From Methanolobus zinderi (GTDB lineage Archaea > Halobacteriota > Methanosarcinia > Methanosarcinales > Methanosarcinaceae): DNA of 64,000 nucleotides. The stretch is from NCBI RefSeq assembly GCF_013388255.1, contig NZ_CP058215.1, positions 744,001 to 808,000 of the forward strand, read 5' to 3'. Under the pieces are notes generated by a model that worked only from the letters and a program-made list of their open reading frames with translations, searched no databases and had not been told where the DNA came from. The position numbers and the translations under genes were made by a program. Of the stretch, positions 19,846 to 46,669 are shown piece by piece (position 1 is the first letter of the stretch; every line of letters begins with the position of its first letter).

Positions 19846-20762
19846 CCGATGATCTTTCAAACATGTCAGAAAAAGAGTTAAAGAACAAGGTCAATGATCT
19901 CAGGACCCAAATAGGCCAGCATGACAGGGAGTTAAAATCCATCTATAAGGAGTTAAAACTCCACCGCACCAATATGGATGATCTCAAAACAAAGCGCAAT
20001 GAACTGAACTCTCAGGTAAAAGCACTTGTTAAAAAGGCCCGTGAAGCCAAATCCAAAAGGGATGCCTTCAATGAAAAGATAGCTTCTCTTAAATCTACAA
20101 GGAATGAGATCCAGGATAATAAACGCCAGTGTTCTTCCGAGATATCCGAACTAAAAAGCAAGCGTGATGACCTGAATAAAATTTCAAAGGGAAGTGTTGA
20201 AACTCTTTCAAAATCCTATGTTGCTGACCTTGATGTTTTCGTAAATGCTGACATCCCTTTAAATCATGAAATAGATCTGTATGAGAGATTGCTTTCAATG
20301 AAGGAGCGTCTTGATGCAGCCTTTGATGCGAACGAGGTTCATCAGGAACTTATACAAGCATATGAAAGTTCAAAGGAAGTATTCGATACCCATGCGGATG
20401 TGGGTGATGAGATCCAGGGGCTTGCGGAACAGTCACAGAAGTATCATCTTGAGATGATCGATATATACAAGCAGGTTGATGAAGTACGCAAGGAGGCTGA
20501 TCTTGCACATTCCCAGATCACTGCAAAGTTCGAAGCTACCGCACCTATCAGGGAAAGGATCGATCCTCTCAAGGAAAAAATAGCTCACCTGAGAGAAGAA
20601 CTGGATGTCTATCTGGAGAAACTCAACGAAATAAATCTTGAAAAGGATGAGAAGAAACAGGAAGAACATCTGGAATCAGCTAAAGAGAAACTTGATAAGA
20701 ATGGCAGATTAAGCCTTGAGGATCTCAAGGTCCTGATGGAAAAGGGAGATCTTAAATTCTGA
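19842..20762 (+). CDS. Archaeal coiled-coil protein, COG1340-like
   Basis: 306 residues, nearly all predicted coiled coil: heptads run about 1-115, then a helical break near 125-165, then 170-290. It resembles the archaeal COG1340 group of rod-like proteins found near replication or chromosome genes. No enzymatic motif. The ATGA overlap with the preceding gene, and position in the mcm unit, suggest a structural partner of chromosome or cell-division machinery (inference). Confidence 0.78.
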   Translation: MTDDLSNMSEKELKNKVNDLRTQIGQHDRELKSIYKELKLHRTNMDDLKTKRNELNSQVKALVKKAREAKSKRDAFNEKIASLKSTRNEIQDNKRQCSSEISELKSKRDDLNKISKGSVETLSKSYVADLDVFVNADIPLNHEIDLYERLLSMKERLDAAFDANEVHQELIQAYESSKEVFDTHADVGDEIQGLAEQSQKYHLEMIDIYKQVDEVRKEADLAHSQITAKFEATAPIRERIDPLKEKIAHLREELDVYLEKLNEINLEKDEKKQEEHLESAKEKLDKNGRLSLEDLKVLMEKGDLKF

Positions 20763-27601: not shown

Positions 27602-30600
27602 ATGTTTGGAACGAACGACAGATTTAAAACAGAACTTATTAGCGTAATAAACGCTGTGAACTCGGGAGATCTGGATGCACGTATATCTCCAAAGAACGGT
27701 TCACTGGAAAAAGAGGCAGCCGAATCGGTGAACATGCTCCTTGAAGATTACTTACGTTTAAAATATGGGGACAATAAAAAAACAAATACTGCTTCTGTTC
27801 ATCCTTCCGGAAATAACACTCTTGTAGACGAAGTGATGCACCTGATCGATGCGGCTGTGGAGGGTAAGCTTGACGCACGTGCACAGGTTGAGAACTATAA
27901 TGGTGATTCAAGAAAGGTACTTGAAGGTATCAATGAACTTCTTGATGCGGTTATAGGTCCTCTGATCGTTTCTGCTGAATACATCGACCGTATATCCAAA
28001 GGTGATATCCCTCAGAAGATCACCGATGAATACAAAGGTGATTTCAATGAGATCAAGAATAATCTCAATATCTGTATAGATTCCATCAATACTCTTCTTC
28101 AAGAGGCCGGGTTACTGACAGAGGCTGCAATTGAGGGCAAGCTCACAGTACGTGCTGATGCCGGAAAGGTAGAGGGCGAATATTCAAAACTTGTGCAGGG
28201 AATGAACGATGTTGTGGGGACCCTTGTAGGTCATATTAATAGTGTACCCGTGCCCTTTATGATCATAGATAAGGATTATAATATCTCTTATGTCAACGAC
28301 AAAGCCGCCGCAGCGGCAGGCCTGGATCCTGAAGTAATGATCGAGACAAAATGTTATGGTCACTATAAGACAAATATCTGTCAGACAGATGATTGTGTAT
28401 GTACCAGGTCCATGAGGACACGGAATTTAGAGCATGGGGAAGCTGTGGCAGATCTCGGGTCAGATGTGCATATTAGTTGCAGCGGATTACCCCTAAAAGA
28501 TCGCAAAGGTAATGTGATCGGTTCTCTGGAAGTATTTATGGACCAGACTGAGATAAAGAACGCATTGGCAGATACCAGATCTAAGGTAGAGCTGCTTAAC
28601 AGTATTCCAGCACCTGTTATGGCAATTGATACCGACTTCAATGTGACCTTCATGAATCCCGCAGGTGCAGCTGCAGTGGGAATGGTTCCAGAAGCCTGCA
28701 CCGGAAAGAAATGTTATGATCTTTTCAATACTCCCCACTGTAATACGGAAAACTGTCAACTGGCCAAGGCTATGAAGACAGGTGAAGTATGCACTGCGGA
28801 TACCACTGCAAATTTACCTTCAGGTGAACTACCGATACGGTATACCGGTTCTGCTCTCAAAGATAAAGAAGGAAATATTGTAGGTGCCCTGGAGTATGTG
28901 GCAGACATCAGCACAGAGGTAGGTGTGACCGAAGAAGTCATCAAGCTTACAGATGCGGCCATTAACGGAAGGCTTGATGCAAGGGCTGATGAATGCAGAT
29001 TTGAAGGCAATTGTCAGCAGATCATAATGGGTGTAAACAAAACACTTGATGCTCTTATATCACCACTAATAGTTGCAGCGGAATATGTGGACCGCATTTC
29101 CAAAGGTGAGGTCCCGCAAAAGATCACCGATGAATATAAAGGTGATTTCAATGAGATCAAGAATAACCTTAATCAGTGTATAGATGGTCTGGGTGCTCTG
29201 ACTGAATGCAATACCGTACTACAGAGTCTTGCAGTAAACGATCTAACTGTAAAAGCAAGTGAGGATTACGAGGGTATTTTTGGTGAGCTGGCTCAGGGTG
29301 TCAACGAGGCAATAGAACATCAGCTTGTAGTACTTAATACTACCAAGTTGATATCTAAGGGTGATCTTAAGATGCTGGAGGTCTACAGGGAAATAGGCCA
29401 GAGATGCGAGAACGATGAGTTCGTACCTGCCTACATTGAAATGATGGAAAATATTCAGGGTCTAGTGGATGCCTTTGTTGAAATGGGCAATGCAACATCG
29501 CAGGGTAAGCTTGATTTCAGGGCGGATACCGGGAAGTTCGAAGGTACGTACAATGAAGCCCTGGTTGCTGTCAATACAGCGTTCGATGCGGTCATAGGCC
29601 CTCTTAATGTAGCAGCCGAGTACATTGAGAGGATAGCAAAGGGTGATATCCCCGACAACATCACAGATACATATTATGGCGACTTCAATGAGATCAAGAA
29701 CAATCTGAACCTTTCTATTGATGCTATAAATGCTCTTGTGGATGACTCACGGATGCTTGCTGAAGCCGGAATGTCCGGCAACCTTGCAGTAAGGGCGGAT
29801 GCATCCAGGCACGGAGGTGATTTCAGAGAGATCGTAGAGGGTGTTAATATGACGCTGGATGCCATTGTCACTCCTGTTAAAGAGAGTTCAGAGGTCATCA
29901 ATGCATTCTCCGAGGGAAGGCTTGATGCAAGGATTACAACTGATATGAAAGGTGATTTCAAGGCACTTGCCGAAACGCTGAACGGGTTTGGTGAAGACCT
30001 GCGATCAATTATCAAGGACTCCGGGGAAGTTCTGGCTGCAATAACAGATAATGATATGACGCGTCCTGTTCATATCGAAGGTGTAGGTGATTTCAAAAAA
30101 CTTACTGATGGTGTGGAGCAGACAAGACTCTCAATGAATAATATTGCTTCACTTGTAAAGAACTGTTCTGATGATGTTGTGGTCATTGCAGGTGATATGT
30201 CTGCTTCATCAGCTGAAATTTCCTCCTCTGCAACAGAGGTTGCCGAGACCGTGAATGCGATATCCCAGGGTTCGCAGAATCAGTCCCGGAAGACAGAAGA
30301 AGTATCTCTCACCATGCATGATATGACCCGGACTGTCCAGGAAGTAGCCACCAATTCCCAGAAAGCAGCTGAGACTGCTATGCAGTCCAATGAGCTTATC
30401 CACAACCTGGGTGTCATTGCCAAGGACCTGCTTGTGAAGATGGATGGTATCAAGGACGCATCTTCAGAATCATCCCATGTAATAATGGAACTTGACGGCA
30501 AGTCCAAGCAGATAGGAGAGATCGTAAATCTCATAACCAATATCGCTGACCAGACAAACCTGCTTGCACTCAATGCAGCAATAGAAGCAGCACGTGCAGG

Positions 30601-31174
30601 CGAGCATGGACGAGGTTTTGCGGTGGTTGCTGACGAGGTCAGAAAACTTGCCGAGGATTCCGGAAATGCCGCCAAACAGATAGCAGGTCTTATCCACGAG
30701 ATCCAGGAAGGAACCTCCAATGCTGTAACTTCAATGCAGCAGGGATCCGAAGAGGTTTCCACAGGTGCTGAAGCGCTTAATGAAGCTGCCAGTGTTATTG
30801 AGAAGGTTGTATCCGCCGGCGATCTGATCGCAAGTATGGTACAGGACATCGCAGCCGCTGCACAGGAGCAGTCCGCTTCCATAGAAGAGGTAACATCTTC
30901 TGTTGAAGAGGTCAGTGCGATCTCAGAAGAATCTGCAGCAGGTACTGAAGAAGCATCTGCAGCCGTACAGGAGCAGACCGCCACCATGCAGGAACTTTCA
31001 AGATCGGCTGAAGACCTTGCTCTGCTTGCAGGTGAGATGAAGTCTGTGGTCGATAAGTTCATGCTCGATGAAATGGCGACAGGCGCAACCACCTCTCCGG
31101 GAAGTGGTCCGGATTCTCCTGAGAAGAAACAGGGCGAAATTGAAATGGGACCAAAGGACAGTGCTCTTGTCTGA
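27602..31174 (+). CDS. Soluble MCP-like signal transducer with HAMP repeats and two Cys-rich PAS domains
   Basis: 1190 residues with no membrane helix, so a cytosolic transducer. HAMP-like units recur (Gly-x-Leu-Asp-Ala-Arg; [11 protein letters not shown]) at about 15-210, 440-540 and 610-830. Two PAS domains lie between, about 215-320 and 328-435, each with clustered Cys near its end (Cys-Gln-Thr-Asp-Asp-Cys-Val-Cys and Cys-Asn-Thr-Glu-Asn-Cys). The methyl-accepting signalling hairpin spans about 850-1150 with the tip [12 protein letters not shown]. It is followed after 20 bases by cheW. No CheA, CheB or CheY is in the window. Confidence 0.92.
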
Positions 31175-31194: not shown

Positions 31195-31686
31195 ATGGAC
31201 GAACTGTCATTTGATGGAACAAATGTGACCGAAGATCTGCTTCAGCTGGTGATCTTCCAGCTTGGTGGCGAGGAGTTCGGTGTCGAGATTGTAAAGGTTC
31301 AGGAGATCATAAGGATGCCTGAGATAACTCAGATCCCTCAATCTCCTGATTTTGTAGAGGGTGTGATCAACCTTCGCGGAAATGTAATTGTGGTTGTAAA
31401 CCTCGAAAAGAGATTCAATCTCAACCTGAAGGATGCCGATGATAATTCCAGGGTTATCGTCGTTGAGATCGGGAACAATGTTGTGGGTATGATCGTAGAC
31501 TCTGTCAATGAGGTATTAAGAATCCCCAAATCCAGTGTGGAACCAGCACCTGATCTCGTGCTTTCACAGATCAGCAGGGATTACATCAAAGGTGTCGGAA
31601 AGATCAATGAACGTCTTCTGATACTGCTGGATCTTGCCAGAGTTCTGACAATCGAGGAAATGAATGAAGTGGCTGCCCTTGCCTGA
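31195..31686 (+). CDS. cheW: CheW-like coupling protein
   Basis: 163 residues with a complete CheW fold: Phe-Gly-Val-Glu-Ile-x-Lys-Val-Gln-Glu-Ile (about 28-38), Gly-Val-Ile-Asn-Leu-Arg-Gly-Asn (about 58-65) and Gly-Val-Gly-Lys-Ile (about 140). CheW links chemoreceptors to the kinase CheA. GAGG at 31183-31186 serves the ATG. It lies directly after the MCP-like gene, so this receptor is its likely partner. Confidence 0.92.
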   Translation: MDELSFDGTNVTEDLLQLVIFQLGGEEFGVEIVKVQEIIRMPEITQIPQSPDFVEGVINLRGNVIVVVNLEKRFNLNLKDADDNSRVIVVEIGNNVVGMIVDSVNEVLRIPKSSVEPAPDLVLSQISRDYIKGVGKINERLLILLDLARVLTIEEMNEVAALA

Positions 31687-31822: not shown

Positions 31823-32422
31823 ATGGCTTTTACATACTTTTTCAGGGATATGCAGACTCTTGAAATGATTAGGGATTACGTTATCCCTGAACTCAGGACC
31901 CGCCGGTATATCCATATCTGGGATGCGGGCTGTGCCATGGGGCCTGAACCTTATTCACTTGCAATGGTGCTGCGTGAGAACATGGGTATGATCTTCAGGA
32001 ATGTGAAGATACACGCAACTGATATTGATAACAGTAATCTCTTTGGTGATATCATCAGCAGAGCTGTCTATCCCAGGGAACAGGTTCAGAGAATACCAAA
32101 GAATATTTTTGAAAGGTACTTCTCGCCAGCCGATGAGCCTGGACATTTCGTTCTTTCTGAAGAGATCAGAAAGAGTGTTTATTTCACAAGACACGATCTT
32201 CTGGAACTGCAGCCCATACGTAAGGGTCTGAACCTTATACTCTGTAAGAACGTACTGCTGCATTTCCAGGAGAGTGAACGGATAGAGGTTATCAGGATGT
32301 TCCATGATGCCCTGGACGGAGGATACCTTGCCATGGAGCAGACCCAGAAAATGCCCGAAGAGCTTGAAGATTATTTCGAACCGGTGGTTTCCAACGCACA
32401 GCTGTACCGGAAAGTTTGTTAA
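31823..32422 (+). CDS. Short CheR-like protein methyltransferase
   Basis: 199 residues. The SAM-binding motif Trp-Asp-Ala-Gly-Cys-Ala-Met-Gly-Pro-Glu-Pro-Tyr-Ser-Leu (32-45), the Asp-Ile-Asp segment (about 71-73), Phe-x-Arg-His-Asp-Leu-Leu (about 117-122) and Cys-Lys-Asn-Val-Leu-Leu-His-Phe (about 137-144) match the CheR catalytic domain. The helical N-terminal domain that binds the receptor is missing, so the protein is about 70 residues shorter than usual. It has its own TATA (about 31754-31763). It may methylate the neighbouring receptor (inference). Confidence 0.85.
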   Translation: MAFTYFFRDMQTLEMIRDYVIPELRTRRYIHIWDAGCAMGPEPYSLAMVLRENMGMIFRNVKIHATDIDNSNLFGDIISRAVYPREQVQRIPKNIFERYFSPADEPGHFVLSEEIRKSVYFTRHDLLELQPIRKGLNLILCKNVLLHFQESERIEVIRMFHDALDGGYLAMEQTQKMPEELEDYFEPVVSNAQLYRKVC

Positions 32423-32509
32423 TATCTTCGAATTATCTGGATGAGAGTCCTTAGTTTCAGATAAGGAAAAGGTTTTATCTTTGTGAACGTATTTCTAATG
32501 AGGCGAATG

Positions 32510-33760
32510 ATGGAGATAGAAGCCAAGTTCCTGTTGTCTGATGAAGTTGTTTTTGAAAAGCTTTCAAGCATTGATTCCATTGATACATTTACTGTTGCTA
32601 ACAGAATAAAAAGCAATTTCAAAGACACTTATTTTGATACGCTGGATATGGCTTTGTATTCAGCAGGCTATTCTTTCAGATGCAGGGAAAAACCCGGGAA
32701 GATCACCTATACTCTAAAATCGCTTGAAAAGACAGATTCTGTTATCCGGAAGCGTGAAGAGATAGAAGTTGTAGTTCCGGAAAAATGTGAAGTCTCCGAA
32801 CTCGATGAGGGAAGGCTTAAGAGTTTTGTTTTAAATGTGATAGGCTCTGGCAAATTATTCTCTTTATTTGAGGTTATACACGAAAGGACAAGTTGTGACC
32901 TTATGGATGATTCCAGAAATGTTGCCGAGCTAAGTCTTGATGATGTTGTTATTAAATGTAAGGGGAATGAAAAAGCCTACCTTGAAGTTGAGGTGGAACT
33001 ACAGGAAGGTAGCGAAGATGAGCTCCAGTCCCTTGCAGAGGTGATGGTCGGGGATTTTGGATTGATGCCGGGCAGCAGCTCAAAGTTTGACAACGGACTT
33101 GAGCTCTGGCGTGAGAATATTTCCCGGACTGCAGGAAAACTTGATTACGGCAAAGTTCCCTCCAGGAAAAAGATCGATCCAATAACTTTTACTGAATTAT
33201 TGAATGACTATGATGTTGAAAGGAATCATGCACGAAAGGTTACTGAAAACTCCCTTGCACTCTTTGACGAGCTGATATCCGTGCACCGTCTGGACCCGGA
33301 CCTCAGAGACACAATGATAATGGCTGCACTTGTCCATGATGTAGGAGTAACGACCGATGTGAAGGGGCATCATAAGGCAGGCAGGGATATACTGCTGAGA
33401 CAGTCCCCTGCAGAGATACCATTTCCATTATACCTGATACTTCCGTGGACAACTTTTCTCCATAAAAAGAAAATTCACGAGGACAAACTGGCAAAACTGT
33501 TTGTTAAAAAGAAGTTCTCTGCATTACCTCAAAAAATGAGGGATGACATTCTGAGGATGGCAGCGATCCTCAGGATTGCCGACGGGATGGATTACAGCCG
33601 CATGGATAGTGTTATCAGTAATATAGAGACCAGGAATAAAGATGTGATCATTGAAATAAAAGGGCCGGGATCAGAGATAGATGCCCGCAGAGCAGAGAAA
33701 AAGAGCGATCTGTGGGGTCTTGTACTTGACAGGGCAGTTAAATTCAGGCCGGTTGCATGA
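32510..33760 (+). CDS. CYTH domain fused to a PPX-type HD domain
   Basis: 416 residues. Residues 1-205 are a CYTH/triphosphate-tunnel domain: Met-Glu-Ile-Glu-Ala-Lys-Phe opening, Phe-x-Asp-Thr-Tyr-Phe-Asp-Thr, Arg-Lys-Arg-Glu-Glu, Glu-Val-Glu-Val-Glu. Such enzymes hydrolyse tripolyphosphate or related triphosphates. Residues about 220-416 match the HD domain normally found at the C-terminus of PPX/GppA (Asn-His-Ala-Arg-Lys-Val; Ala-Leu-Val-His-Asp-Val-Gly; Leu-Arg-Ile-Ala-Asp-Gly-Met-Asp). GAGG at 32500-32503 selects ATG 32510. It neighbours PPK2, CHAD, PPK1 and PPX genes. Confidence 0.85.
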   Translation: MEIEAKFLLSDEVVFEKLSSIDSIDTFTVANRIKSNFKDTYFDTLDMALYSAGYSFRCREKPGKITYTLKSLEKTDSVIRKREEIEVVVPEKCEVSELDEGRLKSFVLNVIGSGKLFSLFEVIHERTSCDLMDDSRNVAELSLDDVVIKCKGNEKAYLEVEVELQEGSEDELQSLAEVMVGDFGLMPGSSSKFDNGLELWRENISRTAGKLDYGKVPSRKKIDPITFTELLNDYDVERNHARKVTENSLALFDELISVHRLDPDLRDTMIMAALVHDVGVTTDVKGHHKAGRDILLRQSPAEIPFPLYLILPWTTFLHKKKIHEDKLAKLFVKKKFSALPQKMRDDILRMAAILRIADGMDYSRMDSVISNIETRNKDVIIEIKGPGSEIDARRAEKKSDLWGLVLDRAVKFRPVA

Positions 33761-33772
33761 ATTTTTTCAATT

Positions 33773-35260
33773 TCATTCGAGTTCCTGTTCCAGTTTTTCC
33801 ACAACCGTCCTGAGTACCTTTACCCTTGCATATTTCTTATTATTACCTTCAACAATGGTCCAGGGTGCATAGGTGGTACTGGTCTTTTGTAGCATCTCAT
33901 TTGCTGCTTCTTCGTACAGGTCCCACTTTTCCCTGTTCTTCCAGTCATCTTCAGTGATCTTCCATCTTTTATGAGGTATTTTTTCTCTTTTTTTGAACCT
34001 CTGGAGCTGCTCTTCCGGGTCTATATGAATCCAGAACTTCAATACAATAGTTCCGTAATTGGAAAGTATCTCTTCGAATTCGTTTATTTCCCTGTAGGCG
34101 CGTTTCCATTCCCTGTCGGTGCAGAGATTCTCAACCCTTTCCACCAGTACCCGTCCATACCAGCTCCTGTCAAAGATCGCCATATGGCCTGCTTCAGGTA
34201 TTTCATTATAGAATCTCCACATATAGTGATGTGAAAGCTCTACGTCAGAAGGAACTCCGATGGGTATCACCCTGTAGAGTCTCGGGTTCATCACCTGTAC
34301 CAGCCGTTTTATGCCTCCGCCTTTACCGGATGCATCCCAGCCTTCAAAGACCAGTACCAGAGGCCTCTTCTGCATGAAAAGCCTGTATTGCAGGCTCCAG
34401 AGCCTTTCCTGATATTCCTCCTTCATTTTCTTATATTCATGGCCTGAAAGTTTCCTGCTAAGATCGACTGTTTCCAGTATAGAAGGCTTAAGGGATTTAT
34501 TGATGTATGTATGGTCTCTCTCATTTTCCGACTCTTTGTGTTTTTCTTCCACCTTTGCGATTCTGTTCTCCAGAGCCTGTATAAATGTAGCCATGATCCT
34601 GACAGTTGCAAAATTGAGATCATTTGCCTCTGTTATATTCCACGGAGCATGGGATGTGTCTGTCCTTTCAAGCATTTTTTCGGTCAAAGGCATTAGCCTG
34701 TCGTATTCTTTGATATAGTCCTGTTCCTCTTCTTCGGAAATGAAAAGTGGAATGCCTTTGCCATTTATATATTCAAATCTTTTTTGCTGTACTTCTTTGC
34801 TGATGTGCAGGAAAAACTTGAATATAAGGTAACCGTCATCTGCAAGTTGCTTTTCAAAATATGTTATTCCTTTGAGACAATTTGTGATCTCTTTTTCGGG
34901 TATGTCATGTATGAAATGTTCAAGGAGTGCTCTGCGGTACCAGCTTCTGTCAAAGATGGCAATCTCACCCCTTGCAGGGATCTTTGTCCAGAATCTCCAT
35001 ATCAGGGGTTTTCTCAATTCCTGTGCGCATGGTTTTCCTGTGGTATGGAGTTCGAATCCCATGGGATTGAGAGGCATAAGAAATCGGTTTATTATCTCTG
35101 CCATACCGGATGCATGCCATCCTTCAAAAACGACAATTACGGGTATTCCCAGCTTCCAGGCCTTTCTCTGTAGTTCACCAAGCCGTATGGTGAACTCATC
35201 GATCAGGTCTTCATATTCGTCCTTTTCTATACTTTTTGACAGGTCCACCTTATCAAGCAT
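33773..35260 (-). CDS. pap: Tandem PPK2, polyphosphate:AMP phosphotransferase type
   Basis: 495 residues made of two PPK2 domains. The C-terminal one is intact: Gly-Trp-Asp-Ala-Ser-Gly-Lys-Gly (307-314) and Phe-Asp-Arg-Ser-Trp-Tyr (about 352). The N-terminal one is degenerate: Gly-Trp-His-Ala-Ser-Gly-Met-Ala (47-54), losing the catalytic Asp and Lys, but keeps Phe-Asp-Arg-Ser-Trp-Tyr. This matches class II PPK2 (PAP), in which only the second domain works and converts AMP to ADP using polyphosphate. It is convergent with the CYTH-HD gene, 12 bases apart. Confidence 0.9.
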   Translation of the reverse strand: MLDKVDLSKSIEKDEYEDLIDEFTIRLGELQRKAWKLGIPVIVVFEGWHASGMAEIINRFLMPLNPMGFELHTTGKPCAQELRKPLIWRFWTKIPARGEIAIFDRSWYRRALLEHFIHDIPEKEITNCLKGITYFEKQLADDGYLIFKFFLHISKEVQQKRFEYINGKGIPLFISEEEEQDYIKEYDRLMPLTEKMLERTDTSHAPWNITEANDLNFATVRIMATFIQALENRIAKVEEKHKESENERDHTYINKSLKPSILETVDLSRKLSGHEYKKMKEEYQERLWSLQYRLFMQKRPLVLVFEGWDASGKGGGIKRLVQVMNPRLYRVIPIGVPSDVELSHHYMWRFYNEIPEAGHMAIFDRSWYGRVLVERVENLCTDREWKRAYREINEFEEILSNYGTIVLKFWIHIDPEEQLQRFKKREKIPHKRWKITEDDWKNREKWDLYEEAANEMLQKTSTTYAPWTIVEGNNKKYARVKVLRTVVEKLEQELE

Positions 35261-35844: not shown

Positions 35845-37668
35845 GTGTCATCTCCAGAACGATCCGGACAAACTGCTTTAGCAGTGTTTTCTTTTTTCGC
35901 TGGTCTTGTTTTTTCAATGACAGGAATACTTTTTGTTATGGTTGCGGAGGTATCAAGATATTCCGAACCTCAGGTGATCATGACCTCATGTATCCTTACA
36001 GGACTCGGGCTTATGCTGACCATGGCGGGAATCAACCTGAGTGTGCTAAAGAATACTCCTTTTAGTAGCAGATCCTTCCTTGCAGGTGTTTTTCTTTCCA
36101 TGGGCGGTCTTTTGCTATTTTCCGTATTATATCCTGAAAGCTGGTTCTATCCGGAGCTCGCATATGCAGTAGTACCTTATTCTCTGGGGATATTCCTGTT
36201 GATGATCAATTTGTTTGTCAATTATCATGCTGTTTATTATCTTTACCAGGGAAGCTTTATGGAAGACAGGTCGGCTCTTGCAAAAAACATAAACGTGTCG
36301 GAGAATGAATATAATGATAACAATATCAGGGATGGTTCCGTTATGAGAACATTTGCAGGTATACTTCTGACCAATCTTTTGCCCGGACATCCGGATAAAT
36401 CTGAATATTCCGTGTCTGATAAAGACGACGAGACCTTTGTAACCGTCGGGCATGGTCTTAATGAGGTCACTGAAACCAGAGATGATATTTTTGATAATGC
36501 AGATCTGCCGGATGAGACCCGGGCCTTTAACTATAGTGTGAAAGCTGAAGAGGATGCAGTTATAGATGATCAGGTCGCTGAAAAGGCCGATCAGCAGGGG
36601 TCTGAAAAAGATGTGGACTCCGTCTCTACAGCAAATGGAACTAAAGCCTCGGTTCCGTTTTCTGATTTCATTTTCATGAAGAAGACCAATGTAAAAGCCG
36701 ATGATACGATGCGTGAAGCCTCACGCAAACTCCTGATGTACCATTTCGGTAAAATGGTCGAGCACGAAAGAGGTACCAAGGTCGGAAAAGATACCGAGGA
36801 ACTTCATGATATGAGGGTTGCTGCCATGCGCATGCGTTCTGCCATCGAAGTTCTTGAAGACTACCTTGATATGAAGGAGATGTCCGATCATTACAAAAAC
36901 ATAAAATCCACTAGAAAGGTGCTTGGTAAAGTGCGTGATCTGGATGTATTCCTTGAAAAGATCGACGAGTTCCTTGAAGACCACCCTCCTGAAAGAAGGG
37001 CGGAAATGGACCCTCTCACAGACTCTATCTTGATAGAAAGGGCGAAGAACCGGGGAAAGATGCTTGTCTATCTTGATGATTCCAAATTTAACAAATTCAA
37101 AAATAATTTTACCGATCATCTCCTTCACAAAAAATCCTGGAAAATGAAATCCTTTAAGAAAGGCGAACCTGTCCCTACAAGAGTAAAAGACGTACTTCCG
37201 GTGCTTTTATATGAACAGTTTGCAACCGTGAGGGCATACGATGTGCTTGTCTCTCCCGAAACAGAGCATACTCCTTCTTTTGATCAGTACCATGAACTTA
37301 GAATAGATGTGAAGATACTGCGTTACACCCTTGAGTTCTTCAGGGAGGTACTTGATTCGGAATCAAAAAGTGTAATAAAGGATTTGAAGGCGCTCCAGGA
37401 TAATCTTGGAGATATGCATGATGCCGTTGTGGCACTTGAGCTTCTGGAAAACTTCGAGAAATCCGGTAAATGGGGTGAAGATGGTAATAATAAATCATCT
37501 GAAAGCGGTAGCCTGCAGGATTATCCTGGTGTTGATGCCTATATCGAATACAGGAAAAAGGAACTTCAGGATCTGCTTGATGCCTTCCCCCAAGCGTGGG
37601 CGAATGTCATTGAACCTGATTTCAGCTTGAGGTTCTCAAAGGCAATATCGGGTATTTACACATCCTGA
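35845..37668 (+). CDS. Membrane-anchored CHAD-domain protein (polyphosphate binding)
   Basis: 607 residues. Four hydrophobic helices (about 10-32, 43-65, 78-95 and 108-130) are followed by an acidic linker to about 270 and a CHAD domain (about 295-600). Conserved CHAD elements are Glu-Leu-His-Asp-Met-Arg-Val-Ala-x-Arg-Met-Arg, Val-Arg-Asp-Leu-Asp-Val and His-Glu-Leu-Arg-x-Lys-x-Leu-Arg-Tyr, whose His and basic residues bind polyphosphate in characterised members. GTG start behind AGGTG. Directly before ppk1. Membrane anchoring suggests it tethers or localises polyphosphate at a membrane. Confidence 0.88.
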   Translation: MSSPERSGQTALAVFSFFAGLVFSMTGILFVMVAEVSRYSEPQVIMTSCILTGLGLMLTMAGINLSVLKNTPFSSRSFLAGVFLSMGGLLLFSVLYPESWFYPELAYAVVPYSLGIFLLMINLFVNYHAVYYLYQGSFMEDRSALAKNINVSENEYNDNNIRDGSVMRTFAGILLTNLLPGHPDKSEYSVSDKDDETFVTVGHGLNEVTETRDDIFDNADLPDETRAFNYSVKAEEDAVIDDQVAEKADQQGSEKDVDSVSTANGTKASVPFSDFIFMKKTNVKADDTMREASRKLLMYHFGKMVEHERGTKVGKDTEELHDMRVAAMRMRSAIEVLEDYLDMKEMSDHYKNIKSTRKVLGKVRDLDVFLEKIDEFLEDHPPERRAEMDPLTDSILIERAKNRGKMLVYLDDSKFNKFKNNFTDHLLHKKSWKMKSFKKGEPVPTRVKDVLPVLLYEQFATVRAYDVLVSPETEHTPSFDQYHELRIDVKILRYTLEFFREVLDSESKSVIKDLKALQDNLGDMHDAVVALELLENFEKSGKWGEDGNNKSSESGSLQDYPGVDAYIEYRKKELQDLLDAFPQAWANVIEPDFSLRFSKAISGIYTS

Positions 37669-37817
37669 AGAATGAATCCATTCAAATACGTATCGACAGT
37701 ATGACTATATTGCTTTATATATGACTATATATGGACCTGTATGAAATTTTATATAATAGGTTTACCGTCCTTTTACCAAAATACGAAAGCATCGTTCTAT
37801 TCCTAAGATCACTTAAA

Positions 37818-39896
37818 ATGGATACCATGTCTGGCGAAGTAAATGATTATATAAACAGAGAGATCAGCTGGCTTTCATTTAATGAAAGAGTACTCCAGGA
37901 AGCAAAGGACCCTTCGGTCCCTTTACTTGAACGTTTGAAGTTTCTGGGGATATTTTCTTCGAATCTGGACGAGTTCTTCAGTGTAAGGGTCGGAACCCTG
38001 CAACGTATGATAGACGCAGGGGTGAAGTCAAATGCCATGGTAAGCGCATCTCCTAAAAATATAATGAAGGAAGTACACCATAAGGTACTGCGATTACGTG
38101 ATGATTTTGACGGGGTGTTTGCTGAGCTGACCCGGGAAATGGAAGAGAATGATATTATAATTGTTGATGAAACTGAACTTAATGAAGACCAGAGCTCTTT
38201 TATTGAACAGTATTTCCAGGAAAAGGTAAGACCACGTCTGATTCCTGTTATGCTGAAAGATATCCCGGATTTCCCGTACCTTAAGAACCAGGTGATCTAT
38301 CTTGTTATCGACGTCAGAAAAAGATGGGACCCAAATGCTTCAAAATTCGCTCTTATAGAGGTTCCTGCCGATGTGCTACCACGTTTTATCATGTTACCTG
38401 AGTCCGGTGATAAGAAATGTGTGATAATGCTTGACGATATAATCCGTTTTGGCCTAAAGGATATTTTCTCGACATTTGAATATGATTTTATTGAGGCATA
38501 TACGATCAAACTGACAAGGGATGCTGAACTGGATATTGATGATGATGTCACGAAAAGTTTCTTCGAGAAGGTATCGGAAAGCCTTGAAGAAAGAAAGAGG
38601 GGTCAGCCAGTTCGTTTTGTTTATGACAGGAATATGCCTTATTATCTTCTGGATTTCATACTTAAGAGGCTGGGTATTCAGAAATTTGAGAATCTTGTTC
38701 CGGGTGGAAAATATCACAACGCAAAGGATTTCATGAATTTCCCTAAGATCGGCCCTTCTTCCTTCTATTACGAAAAGAAGCCTTCTCTGCCTCATAAAGA
38801 CCTTGTGAGCCATAAGAGTATTTTTGCTGCCATAAGAAGCGGGGATATCCTGCTTCACTATCCCTACCAGTCCTTCGATCACTTTATCGATCTACTTAGG
38901 GAAGCGGCAATTGATCCGAATGTCTCAAGCATAAAGGTCACTCTCTACAGGGTTGCACGCAACTCCAACGTAATCAATGCACTTATAAATGCAATAAAGA
39001 ACGGGAAGAAGGTCACAGTCGTTATTGAACTTCAGGCGCGTTTCGATGAAGAATCCAATATTTACTGGACCCAGAAACTTGAGCAGGCAGGTGCAAGGAT
39101 AATAGATGGAGTTCCTGGATTGAAGGTGCATTCAAAACTCTGCCATATAACAAGAAACGAAGGTAATGAGCTCGTTCATTATTCCTGCATCGGAACCGGT
39201 AATTTCAATGAATCCACTGCCAGGCTATATTGTGATCATATGATTATGACAAAAGACCCGGACCTGACATTTGAAGTGGACAAGATCTTTGATTTCTTTG
39301 CCCACAACTACAAAGTCTATGATTATAAGCATTTGATCGTATCTCCCCTTCAGATGCGCAATGTATTCGAGCAATATATTGAGAATGAAATAGAGAATAC
39401 GAAGGCAGGAAAGCCGGCTTATATCCATGCGAAGATGAACAGTCTTGTGGATAGCAGAATGATAAACAAACTCTATGATGCCAGTAATGCAGGTGTCAGA
39501 ATCAAGCTCATCGTAAGAGGTATATGCTCTCTAGTGCCAGGTGTTAAGGATCAGAGTGAGAATATAGAGGTAATCAGTATAGTTGACAAGTACCTTGAGC
39601 ATTCACGCATTTTCATTTTCTGTAATGATGGCGACGAAAAGTATTACATTTCCTCTGCCGACTGGATGGTAAGGAATCTGGACAGGCGTGTGGAGGTTGC
39701 CACCCCTATTTATGACAGATCGATACAAAAGGAACTGAAAGAATACATGGAGCTGCAATTTCTTGATAATACAAAGGCAAGGATAATCAATGAGCATCAG
39801 GACAATCATTACAAAAGAGATGGTGACGGTTCTTTCCGTGCCCAGGAAGACATCTATGATTACCTTGAAAAAGAATTAGCTACTGGAGACACTTAA
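37818..39896 (+). CDS. ppk1: Polyphosphate kinase 1
   Basis: 692 residues, full length. Features: Asn-Arg-Glu-x-Ser-Trp-Leu-x-Phe-Asn (N-domain), His-Tyr-Pro-Tyr-Gln-Ser-Phe, Val-Lys-Val-Thr-Leu-Tyr-Arg, and Lys-Val-His-Ser-Lys with His438 in the place of the phosphorylated histidine of bacterial PPK1; then Gly-Thr-Gly-Asn-Phe-Asn-Glu. It makes polyphosphate from ATP reversibly. The start is ATG 37818 or 37827; extension to 37731 adds a non-family segment overlying the TATA (about 37747-37756). The stop overlaps ppx by one base. Confidence 0.95.
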   Translation: MDTMSGEVNDYINREISWLSFNERVLQEAKDPSVPLLERLKFLGIFSSNLDEFFSVRVGTLQRMIDAGVKSNAMVSASPKNIMKEVHHKVLRLRDDFDGVFAELTREMEENDIIIVDETELNEDQSSFIEQYFQEKVRPRLIPVMLKDIPDFPYLKNQVIYLVIDVRKRWDPNASKFALIEVPADVLPRFIMLPESGDKKCVIMLDDIIRFGLKDIFSTFEYDFIEAYTIKLTRDAELDIDDDVTKSFFEKVSESLEERKRGQPVRFVYDRNMPYYLLDFILKRLGIQKFENLVPGGKYHNAKDFMNFPKIGPSSFYYEKKPSLPHKDLVSHKSIFAAIRSGDILLHYPYQSFDHFIDLLREAAIDPNVSSIKVTLYRVARNSNVINALINAIKNGKKVTVVIELQARFDEESNIYWTQKLEQAGARIIDGVPGLKVHSKLCHITRNEGNELVHYSCIGTGNFNESTARLYCDHMIMTKDPDLTFEVDKIFDFFAHNYKVYDYKHLIVSPLQMRNVFEQYIENEIENTKAGKPAYIHAKMNSLVDSRMINKLYDASNAGVRIKLIVRGICSLVPGVKDQSENIEVISIVDKYLEHSRIFIFCNDGDEKYYISSADWMVRNLDRRVEVATPIYDRSIQKELKEYMELQFLDNTKARIINEHQDNHYKRDGDGSFRAQEDIYDYLEKELATGDT

Positions 39897-40789
39897 TGAA
39901 ATTTGCTGCAATAGATGTGGGTTCCAATGCTGTTCGCCTGCTTCTCTCAAAAGTTGATACCGAAGGTGTTGAACCCGTCTATGAAAAAATATCCCAGTTC
40001 CGCATGCCTATACGCCTGGGAGATGATGCTTTTGTTCATGGGAACATTTCCGATGAAAAGATAAGAAAGCTTGTTAAGACTATGATCGCTTTCAGATACC
40101 TGATGGATGCCTATGAACCCATGGATTATATGGCATGTGCCACATCTGCCATGAGGGAAGCGGAAAACAGTGATAAGGTAGTCAAAAAGATAAAAGATAA
40201 AAGTGGTATCGATCTCAATGTGATAAGCGGCAGGAAAGAAGCGAAGATAATCTATTCCAACCGTATCGAAAAGATCATCGCGGATGGTGATTCTTCTTCC
40301 TACCTGCATGTAGATGTGGGAGGTGGAAGCACTGAGATCATTGTATTCAACAGGAAAAAAGTACTTGCCTACAGATCTTTCAATATCGGGGCAATTCGGA
40401 TGCTTGAAGGCTTCGTGTCAAAAGACGAATGGAAAGATATGAAAAAATGGGTAAAATCTGTAACAGAGGAATATAAGCCAGTTTCAGCAATAGGCAGTGG
40501 CGGAAATATAAATAAAGTATTCGCCATGTCAAATACAAAAGAGGGCAAGCCTATTTCTTTTAAGAAACTGAATAAAGTGTATAAGTTCCTGAAAGGATAC
40601 TCACTTGAACAACGCATAACAAAGCTTGGTCTTCGTCCTGACAGAGCCGATGTCATTATCCCGGCTTCCAAGATCTACTTCTCGGTCATGAAATGGGGTA
40701 AGATCGATAAAATGCATGTCCCACGTCTTGGTCTGGCAGACGGTATTATACACGTACTATATCACAAACATAAGGAAAAGTATGTTTGA
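39896..40789 (+). CDS. ppx: Exopolyphosphatase, PPX/GppA family, catalytic domain only
   Basis: 297 residues: an ASKHA phosphatase with Asp-Val-Gly-Ser-Asn-Ala-Val-Arg-Leu (7-15), Asp-Val-Gly-Gly-Gly-Ser-Thr-Glu (about 141-148) and Phe-Asn-Ile-Gly-Ala-Ile-Arg. It should remove terminal phosphate from polyphosphate. The C-terminal HD domain of long PPX proteins is absent; one is encoded in the CYTH-HD gene nearby. The ATG shares a base with the ppk1 stop (TAATG), so synthesis and degradation enzymes are coupled. Confidence 0.92.
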   Translation: MKFAAIDVGSNAVRLLLSKVDTEGVEPVYEKISQFRMPIRLGDDAFVHGNISDEKIRKLVKTMIAFRYLMDAYEPMDYMACATSAMREAENSDKVVKKIKDKSGIDLNVISGRKEAKIIYSNRIEKIIADGDSSSYLHVDVGGGSTEIIVFNRKKVLAYRSFNIGAIRMLEGFVSKDEWKDMKKWVKSVTEEYKPVSAIGSGGNINKVFAMSNTKEGKPISFKKLNKVYKFLKGYSLEQRITKLGLRPDRADVIIPASKIYFSVMKWGKIDKMHVPRLGLADGIIHVLYHKHKEKYV

Positions 40790-40992
40790 ACTAAAAGCTC
40801 CCAATCAGTGATTTTTTTGTACATGTTTTGGAATATGCTGGATAGCTCAGTAACGTCTGTTTTTGTATATTTGTTCGTATATACACGATTAAATTATAGC
40901 CATAGGCCCCGGTTTCATGTTCATAATGCATAAATACTGATTTACTCCAATTTTTCCTTGTTTGAGGTCAGACAAAGACTCGGGGTATTAAA

Positions 40993-42063
40993 TTGGAAGA
41001 TTCTGAACAGATCCAGAACGGGAAACAAACAGAAAATGAAGTAAACGAGCCTGTAGATGGCCAGGAAACACTTTATCTCGGTATTGATATCGGTACCTAT
41101 ACCATAGCGGTATGCACAAGCGAGGGGACAAAGATCGTAGAGAACTGTGCTGTTGCCTATGAAGGAGAAGAGTTTCCGAAGGACCCGGAAAATGTGAAAG
41201 TGCTTTTCGGAAAAGCTGCCCTTGAACAAACAGACCTCCCTGTAAAAGAACCTGTAAGGGAAATGATCCAGGGAAACAGCAGTGATCCCGGACCTTTGAG
41301 ATATATTCTGGAACAAAGTTTCAAAAGCGCGGGAATTAAGCTTGATTCCGGGGAAAGTTATGCAATAATAGGTGTTCCCGCAGGTGCTGATACTGCTTAC
41401 AAGCAGGCCGTCCTTGAAATGGCAGAGGGGCTCTTCACCGGTGCAATGGTGGCCGATGAGAGTTTCTGCGTAGCCTATGGAAACGGCCTTCTGGAAAATT
41501 CCCTTATTGTGGACATGGGTGCGAGTAAACTGGATATCTGCCATGTTAACGGTAATGTCCCAGGGGATGAGGACCATATGAAAATATCCTTTGCAGGGGA
41601 CAATATAGACCAGGAACTGATCAACCTCATAAAAGAAAAACATGAAGATTCAAAGCTTACGAAGCAACTTGCAAGGCAATGGAAGGAAGATCATGGCTAT
41701 GTGGGATTTTCCTATGTTAAATGTAAGGTGGAACTTCCGCTGGAGGACTCTTCCAGGGATGTCTCCATAACAGAAGAGCTAAGATTTGCATGTGAGTCAG
41801 TTATACCTGATGTTGTTTCAGGTCTGACCAAAATGATATCCGATATTCAGCCTGATATGAGGGAACTGGTCAGGAACAATATCTATGTATGCGGTGGTTG
41901 CAGCAAGATAAAGAATATTGATAATTTTATTGAGGGCGAGCTGAAAGAGCTGGGTGGAGGAAAGGTCTCTTTATTTGAAGATCCGGACTTCGTTGTGGCT
42001 GAAGGTGCCAGGAAGCTAACTGAGAGGATGCCCCGGGAATTCTGGGCGCAGATGAATGTTTGA
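40993..42063 (+). CDS. MamK-like actin-family ATPase
   Basis: 356 residues. Actin-fold motifs: phosphate-1 Leu-Gly-Ile-Asp-Ile-Gly-Thr-Tyr-Thr-Ile-Ala-Val (29-40), phosphate-2 Ile-Val-Asp174-Met-Gly-Ala-Ser, and adenosine loop Cys300-Gly-Gly-Cys-Ser-Lys-Ile. Segments such as Ile-Gly-Val-Pro-Ala, Val-Pro-Gly-x-Glu-Asp and the C-terminal Pro-x-Glu-Phe-Trp-Ala-Gln follow the magnetosome actin MamK closely, more than MreB, ParM or Ta0583-type actins (comparison from memory). An acidic N-terminal extension of about 25 residues is added. TTG start behind GGGG; TATA near 40928-40936. A long coiled-coil gene follows after 23 bases. Confidence 0.82.
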   Translation: MEDSEQIQNGKQTENEVNEPVDGQETLYLGIDIGTYTIAVCTSEGTKIVENCAVAYEGEEFPKDPENVKVLFGKAALEQTDLPVKEPVREMIQGNSSDPGPLRYILEQSFKSAGIKLDSGESYAIIGVPAGADTAYKQAVLEMAEGLFTGAMVADESFCVAYGNGLLENSLIVDMGASKLDICHVNGNVPGDEDHMKISFAGDNIDQELINLIKEKHEDSKLTKQLARQWKEDHGYVGFSYVKCKVELPLEDSSRDVSITEELRFACESVIPDVVSGLTKMISDIQPDMRELVRNNIYVCGGCSKIKNIDNFIEGELKELGGGKVSLFEDPDFVVAEGARKLTERMPREFWAQMNV

Positions 42064-42086
42064 TCTAGAGATCTGGATGTGGTGTT

Positions 42087-43892
42087 ATGAGTTCATTAAC
42101 CTGGTCAAAAAATGAAAATAAGGCAAATAAGAATCGGAAGGATTTCACACCCAATATCTACCGGAAACCTGTCAAGGGTAATGGCGAGGAAGGAGATGCA
42201 AATGGGGCTACATACTCCCCCGAACAGGCTAAAAACGGTTCATACAGGCAAAATCCCAGGGTTAAAGAATTGGAATACGATCTTGAAAATATCAAGGAAA
42301 AATATGAAGCTGAAATAAGACAGTACAGGGAAAAAGAGACCGTCCTTGCGGAAGTAAAGACAAGGTACGAATCTGAAATGGAAGAGTATCGCCAAAAACA
42401 GGATCTTCTGAAAAAGCAGATGGAAGAAGTGACTAAAAGAGAAAAGGACCTGAACCGCAAATGTGCTCTGCTCAAGTCCGCAGCTTCCAAAGTTGAGGAC
42501 CGGATTCCTGATGTAGAAATAAATGACCTGAATGAGAAACGCTCGGCCTTTGAAAAAGAGAAATCAGAACTCGAGGCAAAGTTCAGTGAATTGAAAGAGT
42601 TAAGAACTGACTATGAAAAACAGCTTTCAGCACTTGAGGATAACAGGTCACAACTCCATAGCCAGCAATCCGTTTATGAAGAAGAGATGCAGGCCTATCT
42701 GGAAAAGAAAGGCGAACTTGATGAGAAAACAAGACTTCTGGAGGAACAACTATCCTCCGGAGAAGATATTACACTTGATATTGAAGGTCTGAACTTTTCC
42801 GGGGCCGTAGAGATCGTCAGGTCAAGGTACTTTTCTGAACTAAAGGACCTGAACCGCAAACGTGCCGACCTGAGAACACTAAGAGAGGAACTTGATAACG
42901 AGGAAGCTTTGCTAATGGCAAAGAACTCAGGTGTCGAGGAGATCAAGGCACAGATCGAGAACGAGTTCTCCAAACTCAAACCAAGGGCAAACGAGCTGGA
43001 GGACGCTATCAGTGGATATGAGGAAAAAGCCAAAAAGCATAGCGAGAACGAACGCATGTTTACGGATATCATATCAAGATACAATGCGGAGTATTCCCTA
43101 TTCAAACAGAAGCAGAGTGAACTCAGGGAACTTAAAAGCGTACAGGAAAAACAGGAATACGATCTTGTCAGGAGAAAGCTTGCTGCATTCGAATCCGGAA
43201 AGCTGCTGAAATCCGAAGTTTGCAGAATAAATTCCCTATCCGAGGAGCTGGCAGGAAAGGTCCGTGAGTTTGAGGAAAATATCGCAAATTACGAGACCGA
43301 TCGTCTGAGCTACGAAGAGAAGCTCAGGGTACATACTGAGAATAAAGAAAAACTCAATGAAGCGGTCTCAAATTATGAGTCCGAACTGAAGGTTCATGAA
43401 GAGAAGCGCTCTGAGCTGGAAAAACTAAAGCTATCCCTTTCCGAATCCGAAGATGCTCTCAAAGAGAAGCAGTCAGAGATCGACAGCCACAAAAAGGAAC
43501 TTGAGATCGAAAAGGAAAGCCTTCTTGCTCACCAGAAAGAGGTTGATGTTCAGAGAACAGAACTCGAATCCGAGCTTGAAAGCATCAAATCAAAGCGTGA
43601 GAATAACGAGCGTCTTGAAAAGGAACTTGAAAGCACATCCAGTGAACTGGAAACCCAACGCAAGGAACTGGAGGAGCTTCTGGAAACTACGAGAAAGGAC
43701 ATCGGAACACAGGTAACGATTCACCGCCAGCATTTGGATATCAAGAAGATGAGCACCAAACTCGAGCAGCAGTCTGTCTATATCCAGACCCTGAAAAAGT
43801 CCCTGGAAGACATGCAGAAGTCGGTGGAGAATTCACAGGAATACGGTGTGTTTGCAGATATTGTGAAAATGAACCTCGAAATCCGGAAGTGA
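42087..43892 (+). CDS. 601-residue coiled-coil protein, partner of MamK-like actin
   Basis: A highly charged protein. After a disordered Asn/Lys-rich head (1-55), heptads continue nearly to the end, interrupted near 225-250 where a short non-repetitive segment (Ile-Glu-Gly-Leu-Asn-Phe-Ser-Gly-Ala-Val) lies. No membrane helix or enzyme motif. It looks like a filament-forming or tethering protein comparable in style to SMC arms or bacterial cytoskeletal scaffolds. It is 23 bases downstream of the MamK-like gene and clearly in the same transcription unit. No family recognised. Confidence 0.8.
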   Translation: MSSLTWSKNENKANKNRKDFTPNIYRKPVKGNGEEGDANGATYSPEQAKNGSYRQNPRVKELEYDLENIKEKYEAEIRQYREKETVLAEVKTRYESEMEEYRQKQDLLKKQMEEVTKREKDLNRKCALLKSAASKVEDRIPDVEINDLNEKRSAFEKEKSELEAKFSELKELRTDYEKQLSALEDNRSQLHSQQSVYEEEMQAYLEKKGELDEKTRLLEEQLSSGEDITLDIEGLNFSGAVEIVRSRYFSELKDLNRKRADLRTLREELDNEEALLMAKNSGVEEIKAQIENEFSKLKPRANELEDAISGYEEKAKKHSENERMFTDIISRYNAEYSLFKQKQSELRELKSVQEKQEYDLVRRKLAAFESGKLLKSEVCRINSLSEELAGKVREFEENIANYETDRLSYEEKLRVHTENKEKLNEAVSNYESELKVHEEKRSELEKLKLSLSESEDALKEKQSEIDSHKKELEIEKESLLAHQKEVDVQRTELESELESIKSKRENNERLEKELESTSSELETQRKELEELLETTRKDIGTQVTIHRQHLDIKKMSTKLEQQSVYIQTLKKSLEDMQKSVENSQEYGVFADIVKMNLEIRK

Positions 43893-43987: not shown

Positions 43988-46669
43988 TCAGTGATCCTTC
44001 TTTCTGTGAATTATGTATGCTATCAGCAGTACACCGATTGCCGGCAGAACGCTGAATCCCGGAATTGTTCCGGAGCCTTCCTCGGTTGCTTCATCTATTG
44101 TTTCAACTTCTCCTTCCTCGGAATATTCTATGCTTTCCACGCTCAAAAGCTTGCTATCATCCTGAGCCGACATAGTTGCATTATCAATTGCATTTTCCGG
44201 TTCTCTTATTGTTGCTTCACCAAAGCCATCTCCTCCTCCCGAAGAACTGATCTTCTTTTCAGGAGCTGTGATCTCTGTCAATGGTAGATAGTCTGTATTG
44301 TTTCCATCCAGAACATAGGCCGAATCACAAATGCCATCACCGTCAGAATCAGTGCAGGTCTGGCTGAAACCTGTACCTTTGGGAGTTGCCCAGTAGTTTC
44401 CTCCAAGGTATGGACCGCCCATGATATTTGTGCGTGCGGTTTGTGTGGTGTTCCAGATATTATCAGATTCCATGTCATAATCAGTTCCGAATTCCTTATT
44501 GATAGAGTTGTTGAAGAAATTATTGAAAATCATATTGTTAACAGAATCTGCCACATATATCCCACGATTATTATTTGATATTGTGTTGCCAGTCAATTCA
44601 TTGTTATCACTATGGAAATTCAGACTGATGCCATCCCCATTATCCGACACTATGTTGTTCGTCAGGGTATTATTGTTGCTATCTAAATTGAGGTAAATGC
44701 CGATTCCGTTACTTAAAACAGTGTTGTTTTCAAGCATATTGTAAACGGACTGATATATCGTAATACCAAAGCTGGAACTGTTAGCTATCGTATTATTATT
44801 AAATTTATTTTTGTAAGCTCCATCTAACATTATCCCATGCACGGAACTGTTAAGTATTGTGTTATTGTCCAGCTTGTTGTAGGCAGCATTCTCCAGCACG
44901 ATACCATGATTATTGTCCAGAATCGTATTATTACGCAAAGTATTGTTGGTGCTATCGAATTCCAGTAGAATGCCAGCGTAGCTGTAGTCGTCGGCAGTCA
45001 CCCTATTATTGCTCAGGATATTGTTTCTGGACATCTCCAGATAGATACCGTCAGACACTCTATTATTGTTCAGAATATTATTGCCACTGTATAAACCCAT
45101 ATATATGCTAATATTATTCCCTGATATACTATTATTATCCAGAACGTTGCCACTGGAATAACTCAGACTGATGCCAAAATCGTTTCCTGTTATAATATTA
45201 TTGATCAGAGTGTTATTATTGCTTGTACCTGAAGAACCTCGGAACTCCCCAGCACGAATACCGTCTGCATCAGCATCTTTTATAGTTAAACCACTAATGG
45301 TCACATTATCTGCATTTAGATAGAACACATGATCATTTGAAGATGCAGCTTTAACAATAGTATTGTCTGGGTTACCAGAATAAGATTTTATTATTACCTC
45401 TTTATTCACATCAACGTTCTCTGTATAGGTCCCTGGGTACACAAGGATGGTATTACCCGGACTGGCGGCATTTATCGCTGCCTGAATCGAGGTATAGTTT
45501 GCACTACCACTATCATCTACGGTGATCACATTTCCAGTGCTCTGATTGTCTGAAGTTGTGATATTCGTCAATGGTAGATAGTCTGTATTATCCCCGTCCA
45601 GAACATAACTTACATCGCAAATCCCATCCCCATCAGAAGCAATGTGTGTCTGGCTGAAACCTGTACCATCTGGTTTTGCCCAGTAGTTACCTCCCAGGTT
45701 AGGGCCACCTGCGATATTAGTTCCTGCGGCCTTTGTGCTGTTCCAGATATTGCCGGTGTTGATCCCGTCTAACTCAGCATTGTCCGGATTGTTGAAGAAA
45801 TTGTTGTATATCTTATTGTTACTGGAAGAAGACAGATATATGCCCGTGCGAACATTGTTTTCTACGTTGTTGTCTGTCAGTGTGTTGTTGCTGGAATGAT
45901 ACAGCTCGACTCCATAGCCATTACTGCTTGCTGCTGTGTTGTCTGTCAACACATTGTTGTCGGAAGAACTCAGGGAAATGCCGCAGTTATTGTCTTCTGC
46001 TGTATTATTTATCAGCTTGTTGTTGCTGGAGGAGAAAAGACGTATGCTTTCCATGGCATTGTTTTCTACGTTATTGTTTGCCAGCATATTGTTGTCGGAA
46101 GAACTCAAAAAGATACCGATATCATTATTGTTTACTGCTATGTTGTCTGTCAACACATTGTTGTCGGAATGATGTAACCAGATACCTTTGTCATCATTAT
46201 TTGCCGCTGTGTTGCTTGTCAGCGTATTTTTGCTGGAATAATGAAGATAGATGCCGTAGTAATTGTTTTCCACGTTGTTGTTTTTAAGTATGTTGTTGCT
46301 GCAAGATTGCAGATAGATACCTGCTTTGTAATATCCTGCGCCACTTACACTGAAACCATTTATTGACACTCCATCTGCAGTGATGTCGAATACATGGTCA
46401 CCTTCCGATGCAGCCACCACGTTTGTTACCGAAGCACCACCTGTTGACGTGATGTTTAACTGCTTGTAGACATCCACATTCTCATTGTAAGTTCCCGGAT
46501 ACACAAGAATTGTATCTCCATCAGTTGAATTATTTACGGCAGTCTGTATTGAAATATAGTCTGCCCCACCGTCATCATCAACTGTTATTGTTGCTGCTGC
46601 TGCAGTTCCTATACTCATTATTAGCAATACTATTCCCAAAGAACAAATCGTAAACTGTCCAATCCTCAT
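43988..46669 (-). CDS. NosD-like parallel beta-helix surface protein with PGF-CTERM
   Basis: 893 residues. A signal peptide (to about 25) precedes two related halves, each with a pectate-lyase-like cap (Ile-Thr-Val-Asp-Asp, Tyr-Pro-Gly-Thr-Tyr) and many NosD repeats of 22-24 residues (Asn-Asn-x-Leu-x-x-Asn). Each half ends with the same Gly-Gly-Asn-Tyr-Trp-Ala and Asp-Ser/Asp-Gly-Ile-Cys-Asp module. The C-terminus has Ile-Pro-Gly-Phe, a helix and Arg-Lys-Lys, an archaeosortase signal. It should be a cell-surface, probably glycosylated, adhesin or structural protein. Ligand unknown. Confidence 0.88.
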   Translation of the reverse strand: MRIGQFTICSLGIVLLIMSIGTAAAATITVDDDGGADYISIQTAVNNSTDGDTILVYPGTYNENVDVYKQLNITSTGGASVTNVVAASEGDHVFDITADGVSINGFSVSGAGYYKAGIYLQSCSNNILKNNNVENNYYGIYLHYSSKNTLTSNTAANNDDKGIWLHHSDNNVLTDNIAVNNNDIGIFLSSSDNNMLANNNVENNAMESIRLFSSSNNKLINNTAEDNNCGISLSSSDNNVLTDNTAASSNGYGVELYHSSNNTLTDNNVENNVRTGIYLSSSSNNKIYNNFFNNPDNAELDGINTGNIWNSTKAAGTNIAGGPNLGGNYWAKPDGTGFSQTHIASDGDGICDVSYVLDGDNTDYLPLTNITTSDNQSTGNVITVDDSGSANYTSIQAAINAASPGNTILVYPGTYTENVDVNKEVIIKSYSGNPDNTIVKAASSNDHVFYLNADNVTISGLTIKDADADGIRAGEFRGSSGTSNNNTLINNIITGNDFGISLSYSSGNVLDNNSISGNNISIYMGLYSGNNILNNNRVSDGIYLEMSRNNILSNNRVTADDYSYAGILLEFDSTNNTLRNNTILDNNHGIVLENAAYNKLDNNTILNSSVHGIMLDGAYKNKFNNNTIANSSSFGITIYQSVYNMLENNTVLSNGIGIYLNLDSNNNTLTNNIVSDNGDGISLNFHSDNNELTGNTISNNNRGIYVADSVNNMIFNNFFNNSINKEFGTDYDMESDNIWNTTQTARTNIMGGPYLGGNYWATPKGTGFSQTCTDSDGDGICDSAYVLDGNNTDYLPLTEITAPEKKISSSGGGDGFGEATIREPENAIDNATMSAQDDSKLLSVESIEYSEEGEVETIDEATEEGSGTIPGFSVLPAIGVLLIAYIIHRKKDH

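Follow-up and report, generated by a model that had tools for sequence, protein, structure and literature searches.

MamK is the actin that lines up the magnets of magnetic bacteria. In the methanogen Methanolobus zinderi, a gene for an actin of this kind is followed by the gene of a long coiled-coil protein and preceded by genes for polyphosphate enzymes, which raises the question of what such a pair does in an archaeal cell. An earlier note on this DNA had proposed a cytoskeletal system that positions polyphosphate bodies or another intracellular structure. In the following, "the window" is the whole stretch of DNA that was analysed, 64,000 nucleotides long (744001-808000 of the genome). The features that matter for the question are these:

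27602-31174, plus strand: chemoreceptor with HAMP/PAS repeats (PF00015)
31195-31686, plus strand: CheW
31823-32422, plus strand: CheR
32483-33760, plus strand: CYTH domain protein with a Ppx-GppA_III/HD region; neighbour only
33773-35260, minus strand: polyphosphate:AMP phosphotransferase (PPK2 type); neighbour only
35845-37668, plus strand: CHAD protein with a DUF7139 N-terminal region; neighbour only
37731-39896, plus strand: PPK1; neighbour only, missing altogether in four Methanolobus genomes with the actin
39896-40789, plus strand: PPX; neighbour only
40899-40943, plus strand: conserved promoter GCCATA-N10-CATGTTCATAATGCATAAATACTGATTT, with a core that precedes the actin gene in 26/26 Methanolobus loci
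40993-42063, plus strand: MamK-clade actin, 356 aa, TTG start; assigned by profile, PDB search, tree and structure model
42087-43892, plus strand: dedicated coiled-coil partner, 601 aa, without ArlD/E domain
42144-42170, plus strand: N-terminal motif FTPNIYRKP of the partner, with PNIYRKP in 26/26 Methanolobus copies
43701-43889, plus strand: C-terminal module of the partner, about 60 residues, common to the ArlD/E-domain partners of Methanoperedens, ANME-2 and cold-seep Methanosarcinaceae

Both reading frames, the actin and the coiled-coil protein, were found where the earlier note had put them, 23 bases apart and on the plus strand like the CHAD protein, PPK1 and PPX. A ferredoxin-like protein is encoded upstream of these three, as are the CYTH protein and the phosphotransferase. 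Its view of the actin as MamK-like held as well: by profile and by tree the nearest family is MamK, and not MreB, FtsA, PilM or Hsp70. In the profile search the protein matched the NCBIfam model of MamK (NF040964) with 256 bits (E 3.6e-76) and did not reach the curated cut-off of 400 bits; the best of the archaeal relatives compared reached 394 bits. An amidase-linked bacterial actin exceeded 400 bits, and thus the model does not cleanly separate magnetosome MamK. The matches to the NCBIfam MreB models (45-51 bits, cut-offs 293-366) and to the salactin model NF053533 (38 bits, cut-off 400 bits) all stayed below threshold. A sequence search of the PDB returned the MamK entries 5ljw, 5jyg and 5ljv as top matches (E about 1e-49), and MamK was also on top when the AlphaFold model of the actin (pLDDT 88.8) was compared with Foldseek (TM 0.72-0.82, normalised by query length). 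The gene is single-copy in the 2.70 Mb single-contig genome, and a plasmid collection contained two remote MreB-like matches only.

The actin tree comprised 62 proteins, with magnetosome MamK represented once (AMB-1) and without salactin. The archaeal actins formed a single clade (94/100), apart from which AMB-1 MamK, the one magnetosome MamK included, was placed with bacterial neighbours (99/99); MreB and BeeR were outside the MamK-type clade. The earliest branch of the archaeal clade is Methanoperedens and the next ANME-2, followed by cold-seep Methanosarcinaceae together with Methanolobus. This branching tracks the host groups, which suggests vertical descent with losses. The actin was present in 26 of the 27 Methanolobus genomes and in three genomes of g14, a second genus of the family, and absent from 12 other genera of the family in the genome survey; class-wide it occurs in 54/238 genomes and 5/39 genera. 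One of these genomes, G150, was taken to be the same as G113, as contig numbers and coordinates are identical.

The bacterial relatives have surroundings of their own. At the loci L141-L149, L154, L155, L158 and L160, all from Desulfobacterota/Acidobacteriota MAGs, the MamK-type actin is directly preceded by another protein. In L142, L146 and L160 this protein has an Amidase_3 domain, and in the other loci it looks similar. The amidase-paired actins form a group separate from the archaeal clade, and possibly actin and amidase are a separate pair in Desulfobacterota/Acidobacteriota. A deltaproteobacterial MAG (L163:7962-10711) has tandem MamK-type actins of 401 and 480 bits, both near AMB-1 MamK.

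The coiled-coil protein accompanies the actin throughout the archaea. The two genes adjoin in 29/29 loci (26 from Methanolobus including the window, three from g14) and in all 15 further archaeal loci, and the same pair is present in Methanoperedens, ANME-2 and cold-seep Methanosarcinaceae. Actin and coiled coil, noted earlier as a unit, are thus a conserved pair, adjacent in all loci read. Outside Methanolobus, the N-terminus of the partner is an ArlD/E domain (PF04659, 34-64 bits, above cut-off) in every actin genome read; a domain search did not find PF04659 in the partner of the window or in the other Methanolobus partners. Alignment of the C-terminal modules of both forms with hhalign gave 97.5% (E 5e-12), compared with 3% when a stretch from mid coiled coil served as control. 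By this homology both partner forms belong to one family, in which the front end was exchanged. Through the domain fusion of the relatives, part of the archaellum motor is linked to an actin filament; we did not find such a link reported earlier. The structure model of the window partner is of low confidence overall (pTM 0.43), and a PDB structure search with it gave nothing under E 1. Elsewhere in the window (19177-20762) lie two adjoining coiled-coil proteins, one of 222 residues and then one of 306 that weakly matches DUF7121.

Actin and partner are separated by at most about 50 bp, or overlap. The gap between PPX and actin measures 203 bp in the window and 166-331 bp in relatives with an adjoining PPX, and it holds the conserved block GCCATA-N10-YATGTTCATAATATATAAATACTGATTT, whose TATA-like core is kept also in those Methanolobus loci that have no polyphosphate genes. 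Hence actin and partner are a unit of their own and not the tail of a polyphosphate operon. The description of the pair as lying directly after PPX is correct as to order and strand; the gap with its own promoter makes it a separate unit. In the loci scanned, the promoter core was found nowhere else, and no promoter element common with che, arl or polyphosphate genes was seen, so that co-regulation with these genes through such an element was dropped as an explanation. Downstream of the pair, on the minus strand (43988-46669), the window has a gene for a NosD/beta-helix repeat protein; it is present also in G048 and absent between the partner and ODC genes in the other Methanolobus loci.

The archaellum domain in the relatives' partner makes motility or sensing machinery a likelier cargo than polyphosphate granules. 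In Methanolobus, genes for an MCP, CheW and CheR lie upstream of the actin in 19 of the 20 genomes examined, and next to it where the polyphosphate genes have been lost. Across the class, canonical archaellum D/E was found in 48/54 genomes with actin versus 58/184 without, and MCPs in 47/54 versus 71/184, counts which ignore relatedness; the only actin genome with neither is a 60%-complete MAG. Within Methanoperedens, an MCP was present in 18/19 genomes with actin and in 5/12 without (p=0.002, phylogeny ignored). There are exceptions. In the ANME-2 genomes G146 (100% complete) and G150 (97%) the pair occurs without canonical ArlD/E, G150 lacks ArlJ too, and G055, G110 and G187 have the pair without an MCP. 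A strict dependence on the archaellum is not borne out by the former, nor one on chemoreceptors by the latter. The motility link is thus suggestive, not obligate, and in view of the two ANME-2 genomes the motility machinery is a candidate cargo. Many archaellate genera have no actin pair, the archaellum genes of this genome are more than 1.3 Mb away from it, and outside Methanolobus no motility gene was a constant neighbour in the 15 further archaeal loci. In Haloferax, MinD proteins affect the placement of ArlD and CheW foci (PMC11588486).

Two proteins from these surroundings are recorded here for themselves. The chemoreceptor of the window has 1190 residues with HAMP_2 repeats and PAS, and several relatives have a tandem receptor pair. 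A 960-residue protein, Pro-rich over a long N-terminal stretch and with an ArlD/E domain at the C-terminus (L061:11334-14213, G000:C1 near 2116415), is encoded some 40 kb away from the archaellum operon.

A possible interpretation, which we favour tentatively and with slightly less belief than doubt, is that the pair is a vertically inherited Methanosarcinales system of actin and coiled-coil adaptor that places or scaffolds motility and chemosensory machinery. Judging from homology and fold, the MamK-clade actin would assemble into filaments, and the coiled-coil protein would be the dedicated adaptor that ties the filament to its cargo. The constant C-terminal module of the adaptor is likely to be its filament-binding or self-assembly end, and the N-terminal part its cargo end, which would be the ArlD/E-like domain in Methanoperedens, ANME-2 and cold-seep Methanosarcinaceae and the invariant PNIYRKP in Methanolobus. 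The most likely cargo would then be the archaellum and chemosensory apparatus, placed or held together by the filament.

The neighbouring genes invite a different reading, in which polyphosphate bodies are what the pair aligns or puts in place; the filament would run along the granules, linked to them by the coiled-coil protein or by the CHAD protein of the membrane. The polyphosphate genes do adjoin the pair in 21/26 Methanolobus loci, with PPX directly upstream, and the order CHAD-PPK1-PPX-actin-partner is ancestral in this genus. However, four Methanolobus genomes of about 99% completeness (G040, G041, G050, G056) have kept the pair and lost the polyphosphate block; in none of them does the genome encode PPK1, and the first recognised gene upstream of the actin is CheR. 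Since G041 stands apart from G040 and G050 in the tree, the block was probably lost at least twice. Outside Methanolobus 27 of the 28 actin genomes have no PPK1, the exception being G199, and over the class PPK1 is missing in 31/54 actin genomes, without association (Fisher p=0.2). The trend in Methanoperedens is even reversed, with four genomes that have PPK1 and no actin, and genera such as g13 carry PPK1 throughout yet no actin. Together with the separate promoter behind its gap, this makes a role in polyphosphate bodies very improbable; the gene-loss genomes and the absent co-occurrence led us to reject it, and a lack of synteny with the polyphosphate genes in relatives was among the refuting outcomes that the earlier note itself had named. 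The polyphosphate synteny is real but local, and these natural experiments in gene loss show how striking synteny can mislead.

Another explanation would be a cytoskeleton of a general kind, cortical or serving cell shape or division, or else one with a different cargo, for example type IV pili or DNA; the ArlD/E-like domain would then simply bind proteins and have no part in motility. The pair does occur in ANME-2 genomes without canonical ArlD/E and has no constant motility neighbour outside Methanolobus; a type IV pilin gene lies near it in L042, and in an ANME-2 MAG (L128:2097-7748) a MinD/ParA-like ATPase, a PilB3-type ATPase and a T2SSF protein are encoded upstream. Yet archaella, MCPs or both are present in nearly all actin genomes, and in the regions read no division or segregation gene was a constant neighbour, so that we regard this explanation as a serious contender that is nonetheless somewhat doubtful. 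It is improbable, on the other hand, that the Methanolobus actin is a degenerate, non-hydrolysing relic, mainly structural and subordinate to the coiled-coil protein. All Methanolobus actins have altered phosphate loops (in the window, the phosphate-2 loop reads DMGASKLD instead of DIGAGTTD), the equivalent of the catalytic Glu is lost in 10 of the 26, and the branch leading to them is long (0.68). Against this, the window protein has kept the Glu (VADESF), the gene is retained in all but one of the Methanolobus genomes, and dN/dS relative to the nearest relative (about 0.14 for the actin, 0.16 for the partner) indicates purifying selection. The nucleotide site is intact in the Methanoperedens and g14 relatives; ANME-2 has Asp at the Glu position.

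Returning to an actin and adaptor that would serve motility, the partly degenerate nucleotide site may mean that the filament of Methanolobus is a slow or static scaffold. The change in the actin goes together with the new front end of the partner, as would fit a changed cargo or regulation. In its most specific form the proposal is a distinct actin-based system for positioning in Methanosarcinales, which couples a MamK-clade filament to the motility and chemosensory apparatus through an ArlD/E-domain adaptor; in Methanolobus it would have been rewired, the domain giving way to a short linear motif while the standard nucleotide site of the actin was lost. As a whole, this chain of events is rather unlikely to hold in every part.

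In the literature searched on MamK in ANME and methanogens, on Methanolobus actin and on actin-like proteins of Methanoperedens, the pair was not described, which is weak evidence given the partial coverage. Among known systems, MamK is the closest. Sequence and fold both put the window actin nearest to it, the C-terminal W motif is common to the two, and MamK acts together with coiled-coil proteins when it places a cargo; in deep-branching magnetotactic bacteria, the coiled-coil partners are Mad20/23/25/26 and Mad28 (PMC12748827). The archaeal actins differ in forming a clade separate from AMB-1 MamK, in scoring under the cut-off of the model and in having a partner of another family. Neither the window nor the relatives' loci have magnetosome genes nearby, the neighbours being chemotaxis, polyphosphate and housekeeping genes. 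Salactin of Haloarchaea, which has been placed nearest to MamK and has relatives in other Methanotecta (PMC10746226), is likewise an archaeal chromosomal actin related to MamK; the window actin, however, matches the salactin model with 38 bits versus 256 for MamK, in an analysis whose tree contains no salactin. The second-nearest actin family by model and structure is BeeR, a bacterial tubular actin (8r2n, PMC11929497), but the window actin reaches 134 bits against a cut-off of 530, and BeeR lies outside the MamK-type clade. The N-terminal domain of the partner outside Methanolobus belongs to the ArlD/ArlE family (PF04659). It differs from canonical copies in being divergent (34-64 bits versus about 90-100), in standing N-terminally before a coiled coil, and in being paired with an actin outside the archaellum operon. 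In all, this is a real, conserved archaeal pair of actin and adaptor, of the type that positions by actin plus coiled coil. Methanogens and anaerobic methanotrophs thereby gain a conserved and genetically simple bacterial-type actin with an adaptor of its own, and with it a candidate, open to testing, for the way in which these cells position their large machines.
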